64,000 nt of DNA from Bacteroidota bacterium (GCA_016787485.1 JAEUUL010000022.1:115887-179886), one strand, 5' to 3'. Positions 14,825 through 23,781 are shown, counted from the stretch's first letter. A program made the numbers and translations. The notes: generated by a model from the sequence alone, not told the origin.

Positions 14825-17599
14825 ATGGCTGAAAAGAAACTCTTTCTGCTCGATGGCATGGCCCTGATTTACCGGGCTTTTTTTGCCTTTAACCAAAACC
14901 CCCGCATTACCAGCACCGGCCTCAATGCCAGTGCCATGTTCGGCTTTACCAACACACTGCTCGATGTACTGAACAAACAGAAACCCACCCATATCGCCGT
15001 GGTTTTCGATACAGACAAACCCACAGAACGCCACCTTGAATACGAGAAATACAAGGCACACCGTGAAGAAATGCCGGAAGATCTGCGAAAAAGCATTCCC
15101 TACATCTTTCGCATCATCGAAGGATTTGGCATTCCCGTAATCACACACGACGGGTATGAGGCAGATGACATCATCGGCACATTTGCCCTGCAGGCTGCCG
15201 ACCTGGGTTTTGATGTTTACATGATGACCCCGGATAAGGATTTCGGCCAACTGGTGCGCGAACATGTGTTCATTTATAAACCCGGTCGTATGGGCAATCC
15301 GGACGAGGTGTGGGGTGTGCGCGAGGTACTGAACAAATGGGAAATCGAGAGGGTCGATCAGGTCATTGACATTCTGGGTCTCTGGGGCGATGCCGTAGAC
15401 AATATACCCGGCGTACCCGGTGTGGGTGAAAAAACCGCCAAAAAACTCATTCAGGAGTATGGCACTGTAGAGAATATTCTGGAAAATACAGACAAACTCA
15501 AAGGGGCCATGAAAGAGAAATTTGAAAACCACCGCGAACAAGCCCTCATGAGCAAGCGGCTGGCCACCATCAATACCGCTGTGCCGGTAGAGTTGCACCC
15601 CGATGAGCTGATACTGACCGGAGTGAGGGATGAAAAACTGCGGGAAGTTTTCAATGAACTGGAATTCCGCACCATGATGAAACGCGTATTTGGTGAATCA
15701 GGTGGAAACCAGGCTCCGGTAAATGGACCCGTGCAGGGCAGTTTGTTTGACCAGCCGCCGGCAGAAGCCAAACCGGTAAGCATAGAATACCGCACCATAG
15801 AAAACACAGCACATACTTACAAACTGTGCGATACAGATGCATTGATTGCGGAAGCCATAGAGGCCATGAATCAATCCGCAGAGTTTTGTTTTGATACAGA
15901 AACCACAGGCCTGATTGCCTTTCAGGCAGACATTGTGGGGCTGGCACTGAGCTGCAAAGCCCGGGAAGGGTATTACATTCCTTTCCCTCCGGAATTTGAA
16001 CAGGCCAAAGCGTTGTTCGCCCGTTTTCAACCGCTTTTTGAAAGCGATAAAACAAAAATTGCACAGAATATCAAATATGATCTGATGGTGCTGAACCGCT
16101 ATGGAATTGATGTAGCGGGACCCTGGTTCGATACCATGCTGGCCCATTATCTGATAGAACCGGATATGCGCCACAACATGGATTTACTGGCCGAAAGCTA
16201 CCTGCACTACCATCCCGTTTCCATTGAATCACTCATCGGGAAAAAAGGTCCGCATCAATTAAACATGTCGCAGGTGGAAGTGGAAAAAGTAAAGGAATAT
16301 GCAACAGAAGACGCGGACATTACTTTTCAGCTGAAACAAAAACTGGAACCCGAAGTAAAAAACAGAAATGTAAACAGTGTATTTACCGAACTGGAAATGC
16401 CTCTGGTGCCCGTGCTTGCCGCCATGGAAACAGAAGGGGTGCGTATCGATACCGGTTTTCTTACCGAATACAGCAAAGAACTGGCTTTGCAAAGCAGCGA
16501 TATTCAAACCCAAATATTCCAGTTGGCAGGTGAAGAATTCAATATTTCATCACCACAACAAGTAGGTAAAATTCTGTTTGATAAATTAAAACTGATTGAC
16601 AAACCCAAGACGACCAAAACGGGACAGTACCAGACCGATGAGGAAACCCTGCTTACCCTGTCCGGTGAACACGAAATTGTGCAGAAAATTCTCGATTTCC
16701 GGCAATTGCAAAAACTGAAAGGCACTTATGTAGACGCTTTACCCCAACTTGTCAATCCGCATACCGGAAGATTGCATACCAGTTTCAACCAGGCTGTGGC
16801 TGCCACGGGAAGACTCAGCAGCCAGAACCCCAATTTGCAGAACATTCCTATCCGCACAGAACTGGGCAAAGAAGTGAGGCGCGCATTTATCCCGCGGGAC
16901 AACAACCATGTGCTCTTAAGTGCAGATTATTCGCAGATAGAATTGCGTGTGATTGCCCATGTAAGCAAAGACGAAGGCATGACCGAAGCCTTCCGGCAGG
17001 GACTGGATATCCATACGGCCACAGCGGCCCGGGTTTGGGGTGTACCCCTGGAATCGGTGGATAAGGACATGCGCAGAAAAGCCAAGACAGTCAACTTTGG
17101 AATCATTTACGGCATTTCAGCCTTCGGACTAAGCCAGCGTGTGGGCATTCCCCGCAAGGAAGCCAAAGAAATCATCGACAATTATTTTGAAAAATTTCCC
17201 GGCATCAAATCCTACATGGACAGCACCATTGACTTTGCCAGAAAACATGGATATGTAGAAACCCTTTTGGGCCGCAGACGTTACATCCGCGACATCAACA
17301 GTGCCAATGCCACCGTACGTGGGTTTGCGGAACGCAACGCCATCAACGCACCCATACAGGGCAGTGCAGCAGACATGATCAAAATGGCCATGATTCATAT
17401 TCATGACTGGATGAAAAAAGAAAAACTGAAATCACGCATGATTTTGCAGGTGCACGACGAATTGTTGTTTGATGTAACCCGGGATGAGATTGACATCATC
17501 GCGCCCAGAATCAAAGCCCTGATGGCCACAGCCATGCCCCTGGAAGTACCTGTTGAAGTGGAATACGGCACCGGAGAAAACTGGCTGGAGGCGCATTGA
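14825..17599 (+). CDS. polA: DNA polymerase I
   Basis: 924 aa, full length. The 5'-3' exonuclease domain fills about residues 1-300 (LLDGMALIYRAFFAF; DGYEADDIIGT; TPDKDFGQLV). The 3'-5' proofreading domain looks active, with FDTETTGL at about 355 and NIKYDLMVL at about 418. The polymerase domain has motif A SADYSQIELRV (about 699), motif B RRKAKTVNFGIIYG (about 749) and motif C QVHDELLFD (about 876). It fills gaps and removes primers in replication and repair. The downstream side borders the cassette array, which is inserted between polA and a porin gene. Confidence 0.97.
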   Translation: MAEKKLFLLDGMALIYRAFFAFNQNPRITSTGLNASAMFGFTNTLLDVLNKQKPTHIAVVFDTDKPTERHLEYEKYKAHREEMPEDLRKSIPYIFRIIEGFGIPVITHDGYEADDIIGTFALQAADLGFDVYMMTPDKDFGQLVREHVFIYKPGRMGNPDEVWGVREVLNKWEIERVDQVIDILGLWGDAVDNIPGVPGVGEKTAKKLIQEYGTVENILENTDKLKGAMKEKFENHREQALMSKRLATINTAVPVELHPDELILTGVRDEKLREVFNELEFRTMMKRVFGESGGNQAPVNGPVQGSLFDQPPAEAKPVSIEYRTIENTAHTYKLCDTDALIAEAIEAMNQSAEFCFDTETTGLIAFQADIVGLALSCKAREGYYIPFPPEFEQAKALFARFQPLFESDKTKIAQNIKYDLMVLNRYGIDVAGPWFDTMLAHYLIEPDMRHNMDLLAESYLHYHPVSIESLIGKKGPHQLNMSQVEVEKVKEYATEDADITFQLKQKLEPEVKNRNVNSVFTELEMPLVPVLAAMETEGVRIDTGFLTEYSKELALQSSDIQTQIFQLAGEEFNISSPQQVGKILFDKLKLIDKPKTTKTGQYQTDEETLLTLSGEHEIVQKILDFRQLQKLKGTYVDALPQLVNPHTGRLHTSFNQAVAATGRLSSQNPNLQNIPIRTELGKEVRRAFIPRDNNHVLLSADYSQIELRVIAHVSKDEGMTEAFRQGLDIHTATAARVWGVPLESVDKDMRRKAKTVNFGIIYGISAFGLSQRVGIPRKEAKEIIDNYFEKFPGIKSYMDSTIDFARKHGYVETLLGRRRYIRDINSANATVRGFAERNAINAPIQGSAADMIKMAMIHIHDWMKKEKLKSRMILQVHDELLFDVTRDEIDIIAPRIKALMATAMPLEVPVEVEYGTGENWLEAH

Positions 17600-17662: not shown

Positions 17663-17872
17663 CATGCGGCGCCACAACCTTTTTTATAAAAACAGGGCTC
17701 CCCTCTTGAAAATTATTGCTCCGTAGACTAAATTGCACTGAGAAAAGGCAGCTGTGTAGTTATGTTATTGCCAGAGGGGATTCCTGTTCAAACAAGGAAA
17801 TATCTTTGGTTCCCGGAAAAGCATTGAGGAAGAGTATGTGGCAGACTGGTGCAAGTTCAAAAGAAATAAGGC
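17663..17872. other. Non-coding left shoulder of the cassette array
   Basis: No credible gene; the only frame (74 codons, 17716-17940) has no family resemblance and runs into the attC-like site. A GTTATTGCC at 17764-17772 partly resembles the expected 5' end (GTTATAGC) of a module ending with the R'' box at 17873-17880, so a roughly 175-bp empty or decayed cassette may lie here. That reading is tentative. Confidence 0.35.
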
Positions 17873-17947
17873 GCTATAACATAGCGTGTATACAGCCAGA
17901 TTGGGCAGATTGGCGCTATTTTGTAGCGCATATAAGCTAGTTAGCTG
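17873..17947 (+). mobile_element. attC-like site at the left edge of the cassette array
   Basis: R''-like GCTATAAC (17873-17880), L'' region ATAGCGTGTATA, L' region CGCATATAAGCTA, and R' GTTAGCTG (17940-17947). The inside holds small GCGCTA/TAGCGC hairpins. It is shorter (75 bp) and less regular than the next two sites. R' is certain because its TTAGCTG is the exact complement of the R'' box ending the helicase cassette. The left half is less sure. Confidence 0.5.
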
Positions 17948-17991
17948 TAATGCTATGACGACCACCCAACACTAACAGACAAAGACAAAAA

Positions 17992-19551
17992 ATGAAAATA
18001 TTACTTGCAGGACCTGGGACAGGTAAAACGACAAAGATTAAGCAAATCATTGCAGACGAATTTCCAAAAGCGGAGAAGATAAAAGTGGTTTCTTTTACTA
18101 ATGCCACAGTAAAAGACTTGACAGAAAGTTTCAGCAAAAACGAAAGTGTCTCTTGTTCAACGTTACACAGTTTCGCACTCAAATTAAATCATCTGCCTGA
18201 AGTTCACATCATAGACAACAAGATTGAATTTAAAATCCTCTTCTCATTATCAACAAAGTTAGAAATTGACTTTCCGACAATATGTGAGTTTGTTAGATGT
18301 ATAACATTTGACGGAATGATAGCAAGTTGCGTTAGTTTCATTAAAGCCAACCCAGCATATGCGGAAGACAAAATCGGAAAATTAGATTTACTACTCGTTG
18401 ACGAGTTTCAGGACTTTAACCCTGACGAGCAAAAACTTGTAATGCTGGCTTCTCAATTGGCGACAGAAACAATAATACTCGGTGATGACGACCAATCAAT
18501 TTACGGTTTTAAAGATGCTGACCCCGATGGAATTATTGCACTTTACAATGATGCGACAGTTGAAAAAATACCACACGAAAACATTTGTTATCGCTGTCCA
18601 GACGAGGTTGTAGATTATTGCGTAAAACTTTTACAGCGTAACAAGAAAAGAGTTGAGAAAGAGTGGAACAAATCAAAAAAGGAAGGCAAAATATATTTCA
18701 ACCAATTATTAACTCAAGACCAATGTGACGAATATATACTTGGTATTATCGCCAATATCAAAGCCGCAGACCCGCAAGCAAGTATTCTTGTTCTTAGCCC
18801 GTTGGGGGTAGTTGTAGAAACACTCAAAGCAAAGTTAGGACAACAAAATATTGAAATAAATGACTGTTGGAATGAAGATTGGGACAAAGAACTATTGGCT
18901 AAAATTTGGTGGATGAACGCCATCTACAGCAAAAACAAACTCCCTTACATTCTATTTTTATTAAAGCATTACGGACACTTTCAAAAGGCTAAACTCATAG
19001 GTTTATTAAAAACAAAATTCCAGACAGGCTTCAAGGAAGCCGATTTAATTATTGAACTATTAAATTTAAAATATCTGCCTGACCCATTAGCATCATTCAT
19101 TTCCAACCCACCGACAATTCAAGATTTTTTTGCCACACAAAATGACTTTGAGATATTGAAAGAGCATATAGACGAAAACAACATTGAGGAAAGTATATCT
19201 TACTTAACAAACAAAGTGAAAACCAAGAAAGAGTTTGAAAAAGGCAAGATTAACTTTATGTCAATTCATAAATCCAAAGGACTTCAATCGGACTTCGTAA
19301 TCATTAATGGACTTGTTTCAGGCATTTTGCCTAATGAAGCGAGGGGTTTAGACACTATAGAAGCACAAAGACGTTTACTCTTCGTTGGTATGACAAGAGC
19401 CTTGAAAGAATTGCATATGGTTTCTACAGTTGAGTGGCAAGGCAAAGACTTAATGGGTAACAACGCAGATATGGGAGAGTTCAAGTTTGACAAGTATAAA
19501 CGTAAATACAGCGGCAAGACATCAAAATTTGTTGAAGAAATAAAAGCGTAA
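17992..19551 (+). CDS. Compact UvrD/Rep-like SF1 DNA helicase (cassette 1 cargo)
   Basis: 519 aa, shorter than UvrD (about 720). Helicase motifs are in order and intact: Walker A AGPGTGKTTK (residues 6-15), Ia SFTNATVKDL, Ic STLHSFALKL, Walker B LLVDEFQDFNPDE (about 134), III GDDDQSIYGFKDAD (about 162), V FMSIHKSKGLQ (about 421) and VI RRLLFVGMTRALKE (about 460). The inserted 1B/2B regions are small. It should be an ATP-driven 3'-5' single-strand DNA translocase. AT-rich, with no TAnnTTTG box before its ATG, so it may rely on an outside promoter. Lone UvrD-like helicases occur in phage defence (for example as the GajB part of Gabija), but no GajA-like nuclease is next to it; a defence role is only inference. 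Confidence 0.88.
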   Translation: MKILLAGPGTGKTTKIKQIIADEFPKAEKIKVVSFTNATVKDLTESFSKNESVSCSTLHSFALKLNHLPEVHIIDNKIEFKILFSLSTKLEIDFPTICEFVRCITFDGMIASCVSFIKANPAYAEDKIGKLDLLLVDEFQDFNPDEQKLVMLASQLATETIILGDDDQSIYGFKDADPDGIIALYNDATVEKIPHENICYRCPDEVVDYCVKLLQRNKKRVEKEWNKSKKEGKIYFNQLLTQDQCDEYILGIIANIKAADPQASILVLSPLGVVVETLKAKLGQQNIEINDCWNEDWDKELLAKIWWMNAIYSKNKLPYILFLLKHYGHFQKAKLIGLLKTKFQTGFKEADLIIELLNLKYLPDPLASFISNPPTIQDFFATQNDFEILKEHIDENNIEESISYLTNKVKTKKEFEKGKINFMSIHKSKGLQSDFVIINGLVSGILPNEARGLDTIEAQRRLLFVGMTRALKELHMVSTVEWQGKDLMGNNADMGEFKFDKYKRKYSGKTSKFVEEIKA

Positions 19552-19574
19552 AACGGTGGACAGAAAAAGCACTA

Positions 19575-19708
19575 CAGCTAACAAGGGGTTTGCGATAGCG
19601 GGGGTTCCGTGCTTCGCAGACACATTTGTGCAAGGTGGAAGTTCAGTTCTCCGAACAAGGTTTAGTGCTAAAACACCCCGCCATCGCAAACCCCCGAAAC
19701 GTTAGCCG
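19575..19708 (+). mobile_element. attC site between cassettes 1 and 2
   Basis: R'' CAGCTAAC (19575-19582), R' GTTAGCCG (19701-19708), total 134 bp. The arms pair over about 20 bp: the region around GGGTTTGCGATAGCGGGG (from 19584) with CCCCGCCATCGCAAACCC (to 19695), leaving unpaired bases like those that set strand choice by the integrase. The centre is variable. Confidence 0.82.
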
Positions 19709-19724
19709 AAATCCAGAAAAGATT

Positions 19725-20609
19725 GTGAACAAAATAAAGAACCAACATTTTGTACCAAGATTCTATCTTGAGAAATTTACTGATTCAGATGGTAAAATTT
19801 ATGCTTTTGACTTTAGAACGAAGAATCAGTTTGAAACTTCAGTTGACAATATTGCGAATCAAAAATACTTTTATGATTACGAGCCTATTGATAGCATTCT
19901 TGGAGATCAGACAATAGAAAAGCTTCTGTCTAAATTTGAAAGTGACATTGCAATTGTATTTAGTAGGATTATCGATCAACTAAATAAAGGCAACATAGAG
20001 GATCCAAGCCATAACAATCGAATAGAACTAGCACGGTTTATACTTATCCAGCAGAGCAGAACTGAAGAAAGTAGAACTTTAAGTCGCCATGCCTTGCTAG
20101 AGGCAGAAAGACAATTATTAGCTAAGAGTGCTACAAAGGAATTTATTGGATCTTATGGACTCACGCCAAAAAATCATGACGCGAAGTTAGATCAAATTAG
20201 ATCCTTCATAACCCTTGACAATGATGATGTGGTTAATGAGTTGTGTGATAGATATTGGGTTTATTGGAGAAATAATACCGATTCGCTATTTTATACATCA
20301 GACCATCCAGTTGTTGGACATATACACGAAGATTTAAATATGAATGCCTATGAAATATTTTTTCCACTTACTCCGACATTAGCAGTAAGTATTCTGTTGA
20401 AAGATCAATTCCCTACTTGGGCGGGCATGAACAATAAAATTGTTGAATTGAATAATCCTGAATTTATCAAGTTTTACAATGGATTAATAATACACAACTG
20501 CAACCGGCAAGTTTATAATTCATCAAATGAACTTGATTTAGCAAAAGCTATACTGTTACAAAAGCCTGAATTATCAAATCCTGACAGACAAAGATTTGCA
20601 AAGATGTAA
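19725..20609 (+). CDS. DUF4238 protein (cassette 2 cargo)
   Basis: 294 aa from GTG at 19725. The frame is open upstream to 19626, but that part is the attC site, so the first plausible start inside the cassette is this GTG (ATT at 19722 also possible). The N-terminus KNQHFVPRFYLEKFTDSDGK is the hallmark of DUF4238; the rest has IYAFDFRTKN, ARFILIQQSRTEESR, and SDHPVVGH followed by FFPLTPTLAVSI, a pattern also usual in the family. The biochemical role of DUF4238 is unknown. The gene is AT-rich and sits just 24 bp inside the cassette start. Confidence 0.8.
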   Translation: MNKIKNQHFVPRFYLEKFTDSDGKIYAFDFRTKNQFETSVDNIANQKYFYDYEPIDSILGDQTIEKLLSKFESDIAIVFSRIIDQLNKGNIEDPSHNNRIELARFILIQQSRTEESRTLSRHALLEAERQLLAKSATKEFIGSYGLTPKNHDAKLDQIRSFITLDNDDVVNELCDRYWVYWRNNTDSLFYTSDHPVVGHIHEDLNMNAYEIFFPLTPTLAVSILLKDQFPTWAGMNNKIVELNNPEFIKFYNGLIIHNCNRQVYNSSNELDLAKAILLQKPELSNPDRQRFAKM

Positions 20610-20614
20610 GACCT

Positions 20615-20748
20615 CGACTAACACAAGCTTAACAATAGCAGGGGTAATTTCCTCGTTATAAAGATTAAGGTATATTTGAGAATAGACAAGTTTCTTTTAA
20701 AAGTAAGAGTAAAATCCCTGCCCTCCTTAAGCCCGAAAACGTTAACTG
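20615..20748 (+). mobile_element. attC site between cassettes 2 and 3
   Basis: R'' CGACTAAC (20615-20622), R' GTTAACTG (20741-20748), also 134 bp. Arms GCTTAACAATAGCAGGGG and ATCCCTGCCCTCCTTAAGC pair imperfectly (GCTTAA with TTAAGC; GCAGGG with CCCTGC). The ATAGCAGGGG core is shared with the next site. Confidence 0.75.
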
Positions 20749-20755
20749 CCATTTA

Positions 20756-21226
20756 ATGAACCATCCAACTCTTACAGCCAAAGTAACATTGGAACTTGAT
20801 GACTACCTCAGATCTCATAATTATTATGACGGCAAAGAAAATAATAGAGTAAATCAAGAAATCCTTGATTTGTGGGATCCAAAATTTAAATCAGCAATTA
20901 TCTATGATATAAAATTAAAGTTTGAGAATGTCGAAATTGATTTTGAAACTTCTGCCTTTGAATTGACTTCTGACAATCAAGGTGCGACTATATTTTTTCA
21001 CAAAGTAATTATCACCGACAAAATAAATTCGGAATCATTAAATGCTTATATAAAAACTTTGGTCGGTTTCAACAAAACAAGCGTTTATCTTGCAAGTAAT
21101 TATGCGAACCTCGAAAAGTGGGGAGGCAAGAGTAAAACTCTGAATTGGATTTTTGGTAAACTTAAAAGTGCGGACGAAAAATTTGGATACTTCAACCCAT
21201 TATCATTGACTGAATTTTTGAAATAA
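20756..21226 (+). CDS. Uncharacterised 156-aa protein (cassette 3 cargo)
   Basis: 156 aa, ATG 15 bp after the attC crossover and stop 3 bp before the R'' box, so it fills its cassette. No signal peptide or membrane segment; it is acidic, with alternating short strands (IIYDIKLKFENVEIDFE, TIFFHKVIITDK) and a C-terminal helix rich in Lys and Trp (LEKWGGKSKTLNWIFGKLK). I do not recognise a family. It is very AT-rich. The tight packing between recombination sites argues that it is a real gene. Confidence 0.7.
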   Translation: MNHPTLTAKVTLELDDYLRSHNYYDGKENNRVNQEILDLWDPKFKSAIIYDIKLKFENVEIDFETSAFELTSDNQGATIFFHKVIITDKINSESLNAYIKTLVGFNKTSVYLASNYANLEKWGGKSKTLNWIFGKLKSADEKFGYFNPLSLTEFLK

Positions 21227-21228
21227 AC

Positions 21229-21317
21229 GGCAGTTAACAGCGGTTTTGCAATAGCAGGGTGAAATCAGTAACTTCGGTCAGTCGCCCCGCCCTTCGCAAA
21301 TCTGCAAACCGTCACCC
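21229..21317 (+). mobile_element. attC-like site at the right end of the array, R' degenerate
   Basis: R'' GGCAGTTAAC (21229-21238) is the perfect complement of the start of cassette 3. L'' GCGGTTTTGCAATAGCAGGG and L' CCCCGCCCTTCGCAAA/TCTGCAAACC are present, but where GTTRRRY is expected the sequence reads GTCACCC (21311-21317). This may be the scar of insertion at a non-attC site or decay. It lies 3 bp from the stop codon of the porin gene on the other strand. Confidence 0.65.
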
Positions 21318-21320
21318 CCA

Positions 21321-23237
21321 TCAATAAAAAAACTTCCAACTCAGCCCTATCCGCAGCCGGAAGGGTTCCAGCGGATAGTGCAGGGCACTGAAGTATTGGT
21401 TGTTAAAACCGTAACGGGTGAGGTTGTTGTTGATATGCTCCAGTTTTACAAAAATCTGCACGGTTTTTACTTCCCCGCTTACATACACATCCAGCATGGG
21501 ATAATTGCCGGCTTTGCTGTTTGATTTTACAGGATAAAACGCAGCTGCATCGGCCCGGTACACATAAGGGTCATACTTCGTCGTGTACCACACATCTGCA
21601 CCCAGCCTCGCCAGCATGGCTCCCTTAAACACACGGCCCTGATAATACCAGGAAGAATACCAGAAAATGGCCGGTGCACTGATGATTTCTGATTTGTTGA
21701 ACGTTTGCCACACCAAGCGGTAATCCATATGCCAGCGGCCCAACCGGAACATGGCAGAAACTCTTGCCTGGGCAAAATTCAGGTTTGCAGCTTGCTGATA
21801 ATTCAGGCTGCCATAATTGTAAGGCAAATGGTTTGTAGTGCCTGCGATGATTGTACCCTCAGCACGGATATGAGAACCCGATGTGGCAACCCCGGCCTGC
21901 AATTGCTGCAGATTTGCCGGTGAGAAACCCGCGTTTGAAATGTCAAATGAATTGTTCCAGAAGCGGTTTACCATCAGCGGCATATGGTATTGTTGCAATA
22001 CAAGTCCCGCATGGGCTTTTAATTTCCCTGCCGTATACCGTGCATTGGCTGCCAGTTTGTAATCCCCCTGTGCGTAACCCGACAGGTAATAGTCTGCCTG
22101 AACATGGGCCTGCCAGGATGGGGCATTGGCGATTACACTGCCATGCAGCGCCTGTGTTCGCTGAATGATGGATTCATACAAATATTCTGCAGAATAACGG
22201 GACCATTCATAGCCCCAGGTTCCGCGCAACAGGAGTTCTGTACTTCCGGCAACTGCCCGGGCTCCGATGCCTGCTTCATTTTTCAGAAACGACCAGGCAA
22301 AACTGTCGTTTACAAAGCCCGTTGCATATTGCGACCAGCTCCCGTAATAGGCAGTGTCTCTGCGGGAATCTTTCAACTGATATTTGTCTTTGTTCCAGTC
22401 CAGCCGGTGCACAAGCCACAGGTTTTTCCCACGCACGGGCTGAAACTGATGCTCCACCAGATGATACCGGCTGGCATAGAAAGATTTCGCTGCGGCAAGC
22501 ATGGGATCATATTCCCCTTCCACCCGTTTCAATGGATTTTTTTTGCCAAACAGGGTACCGGTGTCGTTGCGAAAAAACAGGGAATCGTCAGACAGGCCAC
22601 CGTTTTCATTCCGCCTTGCGCGGTTCCACGAAACCACCAGGTATTGGCTGAACCGGCCGTTTTGCGTTTTGAAGCGACTACCGGCTGTGGTGCTTTTGTG
22701 CATGTGTTCCTGCAGGCTGCCGGCATAAATTTTATTGTTGCTGATGCTGGAGAAATCGGCCGTCACATTCCAGGTGGGCGAAAAATTCTGGGTATGGGTT
22801 CCATTGAACGCAGTGCGGCCATTTCCACCCTGGGCGTAGGAAAACCGGGTAAACGGCACAGCGGCTTTATAGAATATAAAATCGGGCGCAAATTTGTTTT
22901 GAAACGGATAGGGATTGAAACCCGACTGCAGTCCGGCTGCCTGTTCTGCTGAGAAAAACAGGTTGCGCTGGGGACTGCCTGCCACCCCCAGATCTGCAAA
23001 AGGCATAGCAGATGCAAGTGCCGGAACATAGCGATGCACAAAGGGAAAAGCACTGTCCCAGGGAACAAATGAATCGTTGCCCATGCTCAGATTCCGCAGG
23101 GATTGCGAGCCCGGACTGCTGCGTTTGCGGGTGATTGCTGTATCGCCAGAATTGTCATCCTGCGCATTCAGCACAGAACTGCAGAGAACCAGAAGGATTC
23201 CGGTGAAAATATGCCTGAGGGGGTGGAACAAAAGCAC
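21321..23237 (-). CDS. Putative porin (Bacteroidota PF14121-like outer-membrane barrel)
   Basis: About 638 aa from GTG at 23237, which gives a signal peptide (LLFHPLRHIFTGILLVLCSSVLNAQ) ending at the usual Bacteroidota NAQ. The frame is open further upstream to 23420, but that part is basic and does not look like protein. The mature part is rich in alternating aromatic/polar strands and motifs such as FYKAAVPFTRFSYAQGG and YHLVEHQFQP, and it ends in Trp-Lys-Phe-Phe-Tyr, a beta-barrel assembly signal. It probably forms a barrel in the outer membrane; substrate unknown. The cassette array ends at its stop codon without damaging it. Start uncertain. Confidence 0.75.
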   Translation of the reverse strand: MLLFHPLRHIFTGILLVLCSSVLNAQDDNSGDTAITRKRSSPGSQSLRNLSMGNDSFVPWDSAFPFVHRYVPALASAMPFADLGVAGSPQRNLFFSAEQAAGLQSGFNPYPFQNKFAPDFIFYKAAVPFTRFSYAQGGNGRTAFNGTHTQNFSPTWNVTADFSSISNNKIYAGSLQEHMHKSTTAGSRFKTQNGRFSQYLVVSWNRARRNENGGLSDDSLFFRNDTGTLFGKKNPLKRVEGEYDPMLAAAKSFYASRYHLVEHQFQPVRGKNLWLVHRLDWNKDKYQLKDSRRDTAYYGSWSQYATGFVNDSFAWSFLKNEAGIGARAVAGSTELLLRGTWGYEWSRYSAEYLYESIIQRTQALHGSVIANAPSWQAHVQADYYLSGYAQGDYKLAANARYTAGKLKAHAGLVLQQYHMPLMVNRFWNNSFDISNAGFSPANLQQLQAGVATSGSHIRAEGTIIAGTTNHLPYNYGSLNYQQAANLNFAQARVSAMFRLGRWHMDYRLVWQTFNKSEIISAPAIFWYSSWYYQGRVFKGAMLARLGADVWYTTKYDPYVYRADAAAFYPVKSNSKAGNYPMLDVYVSGEVKTVQIFVKLEHINNNLTRYGFNNQYFSALHYPLEPFRLRIGLSWKFFY

Positions 23238-23331
23238 TGCAAAATTGCGCAAAAGCAGGCATAACGCCAGCAAGGTTCTTTGCAGATTTGCGAAATCCTT
23301 TGGTTTTGCGGAACTTTGATGCAATCTACCC

Positions 23332-23781
23332 TTGTCTGTCGGTGCTGCGATTCTGGTGTTTTTATGGAGTACATTCAAATATGTGCTCGGGGTAGGCTTT
23401 GCCCTTACCACCCTGCCCAATCACTTCGCAGGATTTGTGTGTTGCACCACCGGAGCCATGGTGGGCGTAAGTGTTTTTACGTATGGTGGCCTGTGGCTGA
23501 ATGAACGCATGCGCAGATTCTGGAAAAAAGGCAGTCATTTCAACCGCCGCAACCGGCTTCTCATCAAAATAAAACACAACGGAGGGCTGCCCTTGCTGGC
23601 CATTCTCACACCGGTTATCATCAGTATACCTGTGGGCTGCATTCTGGCAACGACCTTTGTACACAACCGGCACAAAATCGTGCTGTGGATGTGGGCAATG
23701 GTATGGATTTACAGCCTGGTCATTTTTGGTTCCATGTGGCTGTTCAACCTGAATCTTGCAGAATGGATCATGCGCCGTTAA
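23332..23781 (+). CDS. Small polytopic membrane protein, unknown
   Basis: 149 aa with about four hydrophobic segments: residues 3-30, 35-54, 85-107 and 118-140. Between the second and third is a strongly basic cytoplasmic loop (RMRRFWKKGSHFNRRNR). No motif points to a function. The gene is divergent from the porin, with about 95 bp between the chosen starts, and precedes the lipoprotein gene by 70 bp. The exact start is unsure. Confidence 0.6.
   Translation: MSVGAAILVFLWSTFKYVLGVGFALTTLPNHFAGFVCCTTGAMVGVSVFTYGGLWLNERMRRFWKKGSHFNRRNRLLIKIKHNGGLPLLAILTPVIISIPVGCILATTFVHNRHKIVLWMWAMVWIYSLVIFGSMWLFNLNLAEWIMRR

Follow-up and report, generated by a model that had tools for sequence, protein, structure and literature searches.

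A probable recombinase-less integron-like cassette array between polA and a porin gene of a Bacteroidota bacterium, with attC-like sites of a family accompanied by a tyrosine recombinase

The stretch of DNA analysed, called the window throughout, comprises 64,000 nucleotides of a Bacteroidota bacterium (GCA_016787485.1, JAEUUL010000022.1:115887-179886). In the window annotation, the end of polA at 17599 was followed by three co-oriented open reading frames (ORFs) and by a convergent Porin_10 gene (21321-23420). The region 17870-21312 was found to contain an attI-like entry site, three precisely bounded cassettes and three attC-like hairpins, and judged from its sequence it is very probably an integron-like platform, present as a copy that lacks a recombinase and composed of attI-left, three cassettes and attI-right. 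The three same-direction genes, each with a palindromic site, on which the original prediction was built, were confirmed as the ORFs 17992-19551, 19725-20609 and 20756-21226 with their hairpins. Its naming of the locus as a cluster of attC sites lacking integrases (CALIN) was upheld as far as an integron-type array with no recombinase nearby is concerned, but the array was found to keep its own attI and its sites did not fit attC in the strict sense, the R-box consensus being missed.

The attI-like entry site (17870..17940; this and all following features of the array lie on the + strand) was found to contain imperfect inverted and direct repeats (TAGCGTGTATAC ... CGCTATTTTG TAGCGCATATAA) terminating in CATATAAGCTAG. 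The crossover was predicted after G17940, giving the junction GCGCTATTTTGTAGCGCATATAAGCTAG|TTAGC, where the bar marks the crossover. The anatomy of this site was that of the region located about 75-120 nt past the stop codon of a recombinase in many loci, and the stretch at 17873-17954, earlier read as an attC site, was reassigned as attI-like. No recombinase or recombinase remnant was found to the left of it. Cassette 1 (17941..19701), whose left end was placed by means of its own R'', contained TTAGCTGTAATGC at the left end and AGCACTACAGCTAAC...CG at the right end, the two being complementary at 16/18 positions (also 10/11). It was found to carry the gene of a UvrD/Rep-like helicase of 519 aa, GajB-like (17992..19551; PF00580, 4e-22; PADLOC GajB, 2e-43), followed by the presence of the attC-like site B (19571..19712) with R'' GCTAACA, R' CGTTAGC and 19-bp arms at 19585-19603 and 19676-19694, which were 95% complementary.

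Cassette 2 (19702..20741) contained the ends TTAGCCGA and TCGACTAAC with one mismatch, a DUF4238 gene of 294 aa with a GTG start internal to the cassette (19725..20609; PF14022, 3e-41) and, following it, the attC-like site C (20605..20752) with R'' ACTAACA and R' CGTTAAC. The DUF4238 gene had matches in 3/395 Bacteroidota genomes, this genome counted, and another window gene had a match in 1/395. Cassette 3 (20742..21311) contained the ends TTAACTGCCATTTA and TAAACGGCAGTTAAC, complementary at 14/15 positions, and an orphan gene of 156 aa (20756..21226) with no match in Pfam, NCBIfam or PADLOC. It was followed by the attC-like site D (21221..21311), the shortened final site of the array, in which the R' motif was lost (CCG|TCACC), and by the right junction G|TCACC (21312..21320); other arrays terminated in G|TCARACTGTCTAA. 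The R'' AAC and the R' GTT were 119 nt apart in both site B and site C, which agrees with the earlier description of two sites of exactly 134 bp. Sites B, C and D scored 148, 107 and 70 bits with the covariance model, all three belonging to its training set, and an Rfam search of the locus gave no match.

The covariance model was built from seven sites of this genome, with which 84 more from other loci (E <= 1e-5) were aligned to give 91 sites. Over 90 distinct sites the stem covariation was 0.501, against 0.128 for shuffles and <= 0.094 for slid partners. The bottom strand was found to fold better in 78/87 sites (computed folds, p=2e-14), and the source of this bias was found in conserved A.C mismatches of the top strand that correspond to G.T pairs on the bottom one; the fold for cassette 3, computed with a wrong right end, was disregarded. 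The L-box region contained such conserved mismatches in place of clear bulges. The conserved core of the sites was limited to YAACA...CGTTR. The layout RYYYAAC...GTTRRRY, given by the original prediction for the attC sites of integrons, did not hold in the window, where sites B and C fitted neither box, nor in 82/88 (R'') or 85/88 (R') sites, the canonical boxes RYYYAAC and GTTRRRY fitting 6/88 and 3/88 sites, respectively. The site model gave no match in four class 1 integron regions, the attC sites of which were too few and too variable in length for a fair canonical covariance model. Because the core is YAACA...CGTTR, the R boxes are rarely canonical and the model was blank in the class 1 regions, the sites are, by sequence, attC-like and of a class differing from canonical attC. 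The strict pattern GTTRRRY...RYYYAAC gave fewer matches in the genome than the reversed control and a hand-made site pattern gave zero. The site family had 22 matches in this genome.

Within a cassette the left end was found to repeat the right end in inverted form, in the window and in both sets of cassettes examined. Among 37 cassettes, the ends of the same cassette matched at 5.65/8 variable positions, against 3.10+-0.19 when permuted, and 0/20,000 permutations reached the observed value; among 61 cassettes, named Bacteroidota included and largely separate from the former set (98 cassettes in all), the match was 5.41/8 against 2.52+-0.17, and again 0/20,000 permutations reached it. R'' and R' of one site showed no correlation (3.06 vs 2.89) in the 37-cassette test. 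Such cassette-specific inverted ends are the relation expected if a gene and its site move as a unit that recombines at G|TT. With this rule of ends 118 cassettes were delimited, having a median length of 0.99 kb and a range of 0.4-9 kb, and the longest ORF was in the sense direction in 111/115 delimited cassettes.

The first cassette of the array on contig C27 of the same genome (L064 5567-6555, minus orientation) was found to share 99.1% identity over 919 bp with one from another genus (L048 1637-2588), both encoding a 265-aa membrane protein, cation-efflux-like by eye. The identity started with the G of G|TT, the predicted crossover, the left flanks being unlike (attI in one genome, another site in the other), and the PolA segment of the same two genomes was 75% identical. 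By these comparisons the cassettes were shown, at the level of sequence, to be discrete units bounded at G|TT and terminated by a hairpin, which move between genera as units. The placing of the array between polA and the porin gene was likewise borne out when the junction was compared: instead of the same three genes fixed at this place, in 17 relatives the porin gene lay 6-94 bp from polA with nothing between them. As this junction is empty in the relatives, the platform was inserted here in its entirety.

A tyrosine recombinase of ~370 aa was found together with the sites, which were present in 28/39 of its neighbourhoods and in 0/40 XerC/XerD neighbourhoods of the same genomes, over 727 kb. 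The sites pointed away from the recombinase gene in 51/54 cases and were mostly located downstream on the same strand, sometimes divergently. A recombinase-only search of GTDB species genomes gave 80 loci, 25 with sites, and in these 62/62 sites were either downstream on the same strand or upstream on the opposite strand. The IntI-specific insertion was absent in 30/30 aligned recombinases (vs IntI1), and 2A3V was aligned to the recombinase as two pieces flanking the insertion, residues about 185-245 of 2A3V having no counterpart. The full AlphaFold model (predicted local distance difference test, pLDDT, 86.5) contained a fold for which IntI4 (2A3V) was the best match (Foldseek E 2.4e-16), and a C-terminal SPLD/SPFD motif was present as in IntI1. 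The best NCBIfam match was the XerA-type NF040815 (196 bits, under the cut-off), and the cut-offs of XerC and XerD were also missed. At the N-terminus the recombinase had an additional domain of about 60-75 aa, with HARP (PF07443) matched in 3/25 members (best E 5.7e-6). HARP domains aid the recognition of DNA forks and folded DNA by proteins, and because of this the HARP-like domain may read the folded site. No IntI was found over the curated cut-off in this genome (the recombinase was below the cut-off of TIGR02249). The 108 genomes of the order likewise gave no IntI at E <= 1e-60, in a search that had no positive control. Where an integrase encoded elsewhere had been expected, a plausible recombinase on contig C17 was found, and no IntI.

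Many loci contained an imperfect repeat region at about 75-120 nt past the recombinase stop. The region terminated in (G)TATAAACAAG or a sequence close to it, and the first cassette began directly behind it. In this genome, C17 was found to contain an intact recombinase followed by attI and one cassette, and C27 and C34 contained two further attI arrays with no recombinase. Arrays of several families terminated in a conserved CCG|TCARACTGTCTAAAAAC (L071 8286, L072 5321(-), L073 7610/14697/15500/16368, L076 4657, L060 11693, L157 9638 and L255 12943). The conserved end G|TCARACTGTCTAA of several arrays is probably the right half of attI, and so, probably, is the right junction of the window array. 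As 17870-17940 is attI, the window array was read as attI-left followed by three cassettes and the right junction G|TCACC.

As a mechanism, it is proposed that the tyrosine recombinase, composed of SAM-like and IntI/XerA-related catalytic domains with a HARP-like N-terminus replacing the IntI insertion, would bind the folded bottom strand and cut the site at 5'-G|TT. The cassettes would leave as circles and enter at the attI located ~100 nt beside the recombinase's own gene, and the arrays of the window, of C27 and of C34 would presumably be served in trans by the C17 recombinase. An intact copy of recombinase and attI lies on C17, which makes it probable that this recombinase works on the window array in trans; this is the least certain step.

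An ordinary CALIN, in which canonical attC cassettes were left by or are served by a canonical IntI, would share the cassette logic, the YAAC/GTTR core, the same-direction arrays and the preference for the bottom strand. It is nevertheless improbable, given the rarity of canonical R boxes, the failure to find IntI in the order (in the search lacking a positive control), the blank site model in the class 1 regions and the company that the sites keep with a recombinase without the IntI domain. The hairpins located 3' of genes, in a multi-copy family with 22 matches in the genome, are also what would be expected of dispersed palindromic repeats, of the kind of miniature inverted-repeat transposable elements or repetitive extragenic palindromes, or of transcription terminators that are merely intergenic. 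Such an origin is hardly credible against inverted ends that are specific to a cassette and surround genes rather than hairpins, the strict linkage of the sites to a single recombinase family and to attI, and a cassette transferred with its boundary at the crossover base.

A considerably stronger alternative, although still the less probable one, is that the window array is a dead relic, that is, a platform minus its recombinase in which recombination has ended. It would account for the missing recombinase remnant, the degenerate site D and the mismatched ends of cassette 2, but attI is intact, as are sites B and C, an intact recombinase is present on C17, and attI arrays without a recombinase recur (C27, C34), one of them with the cassette recently shared with another genus. 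Several points weigh against the reading of the window as a recombinase-less platform served from elsewhere. Site D has no proper R' and the array no recombinase of its own; therefore the array may be inactive. Excision, the choice of strand and activity in trans are inferred from sequence. No site was found at 11/39 recombinase loci, 10 of the 11 having <1.4 kb of contig downstream, and an empty attI, searched as the joined pattern TATAARCWAG|TCAAACTGTCT, gave no match above the control. The two DUF4238 homologues elsewhere had no such site within 1.5 kb. The quick tree in which IntI1 clustered with the recombinase family, and not with Xer of the same genomes, had no support values and contained one IntI only. 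For the model of the N-terminal domain, the SMARCAL1 HARP domain (4o66) was the second Foldseek match with a weak E of 0.13, and the domain had a VIA Z of 5.5 to the N-terminal domain of XPB, eIF1-type folds scoring slightly above this.

Integrons and CALINs share with the present family the cassettes of one or a few genes with a terminal recombination hairpin, the G|TT crossover, the long arrays, the R'' at the 3' end complementary to the cassette start and the computed preference for the bottom-strand fold. The attI beside the integrase gene is shared by integrons and the family, the window copy having attI and no integrase. Unlike in integrons, the recombinase here lacks the IntI-specific insertion and has an extra HARP-like N-terminal domain, the R boxes depart from RYYYAAC/GTTRRRY, the cassettes have longer end repeats (about 14 bp), attI in most cases follows the recombinase gene in the same direction, and attI arrays without a recombinase occur at scattered places in the genome. 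VchIntIA/IntI4 (2A3V) is the best structural match. XerA, XerC and XerD share the catalytic fold, whereas the recombinase formed a separate clade in the tree and the Xer neighbourhoods contained no sites.

In the passages concerned of Smyshlyaev et al. 2021, the IntI insertion is described as incompletely conserved in an 'integron-like' subgroup of tyrosine recombinases, and in contrast to the family described here, those passages describe neither attC-like sites nor cassettes nor Bacteroidota arrays for the members without the insertion (PMC8138268). Integrons are nearly absent from Bacteroidota according to published surveys, IntegronFinder 2.0 having reported for Bacteroidetes only In0 elements and, in Salinibacter, a single complete integron (PMC9024848). 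No published description of such a system was found in the literature covered, which was without preprints and most subscription journals. On balance, we lean towards a second large integron lineage across Bacteroidota, with a HARP-domain recombinase lacking the IntI insertion and its own classes of attI and attC, gathering and spreading phage-defence systems and serving scattered attI platforms in trans, within which IntI may have arisen. If the recombinase works as proposed, single-strand cassette recombination would have no need of the IntI-specific domain, the job of which may be taken over by a HARP-like domain that reads DNA structure, and Bacteroidota would possess a general route for exchanging phage-defence systems, including whole multi-gene operons. 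Direct testing is allowed by cultured hosts, namely Algibacter onchidii, Seonamhaeicola aphaedonensis, Flavobacterium aciduliphilum and Algoriphagus ornithinivorans.

Sites were found at E <= 1e-6 in 175/392 sampled well-assembled Bacteroidota genomes, belonging to 98/179 genera, and at E <= 0.01 in 70/108 genomes of the order, and they were often found to flank phage-defence genes. A 5.8-kb cassette of this genome (C33, L022 5667-11530) contained a whole defence operon, made up of a UG19 reverse transcriptase with its partner RTas1465 and of TmtA (1087 aa), and cassettes here can hold multi-gene systems. Beside other sites of this genome, a type IIG restriction enzyme, TOTE/PDC-M16A proteins and a ThsB-like TIR with SLATT were present. 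On C29 (L023 365-7076), three sites were located around TOTE conflict-system proteins, a ThsB-like TIR with its SLATT partner and an HNH gene, and this array is defence-rich.

A recombinase subfamily whose array is divergent from the gene, like that of classical integrons, was found at L138, L143, L145, L136 and L141 and at the named L225 and L226, and contained no attI past the stop codon. Related recombinases were present in Sphingobium, Sphingomonas and Sphingopyxis (L266-L268, L272), the site model being blank beside them, and these sphingomonad relatives may use another class of site. Similar recombinases were also found in Firmicutes and Spirochaetota metagenome-assembled genomes (L232, L240), with an attI-like stretch GAG|TTATGT downstream. 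L240 had a single weak site match (E 0.0085); these occurrences could be mis-binned contigs or a wider spread.

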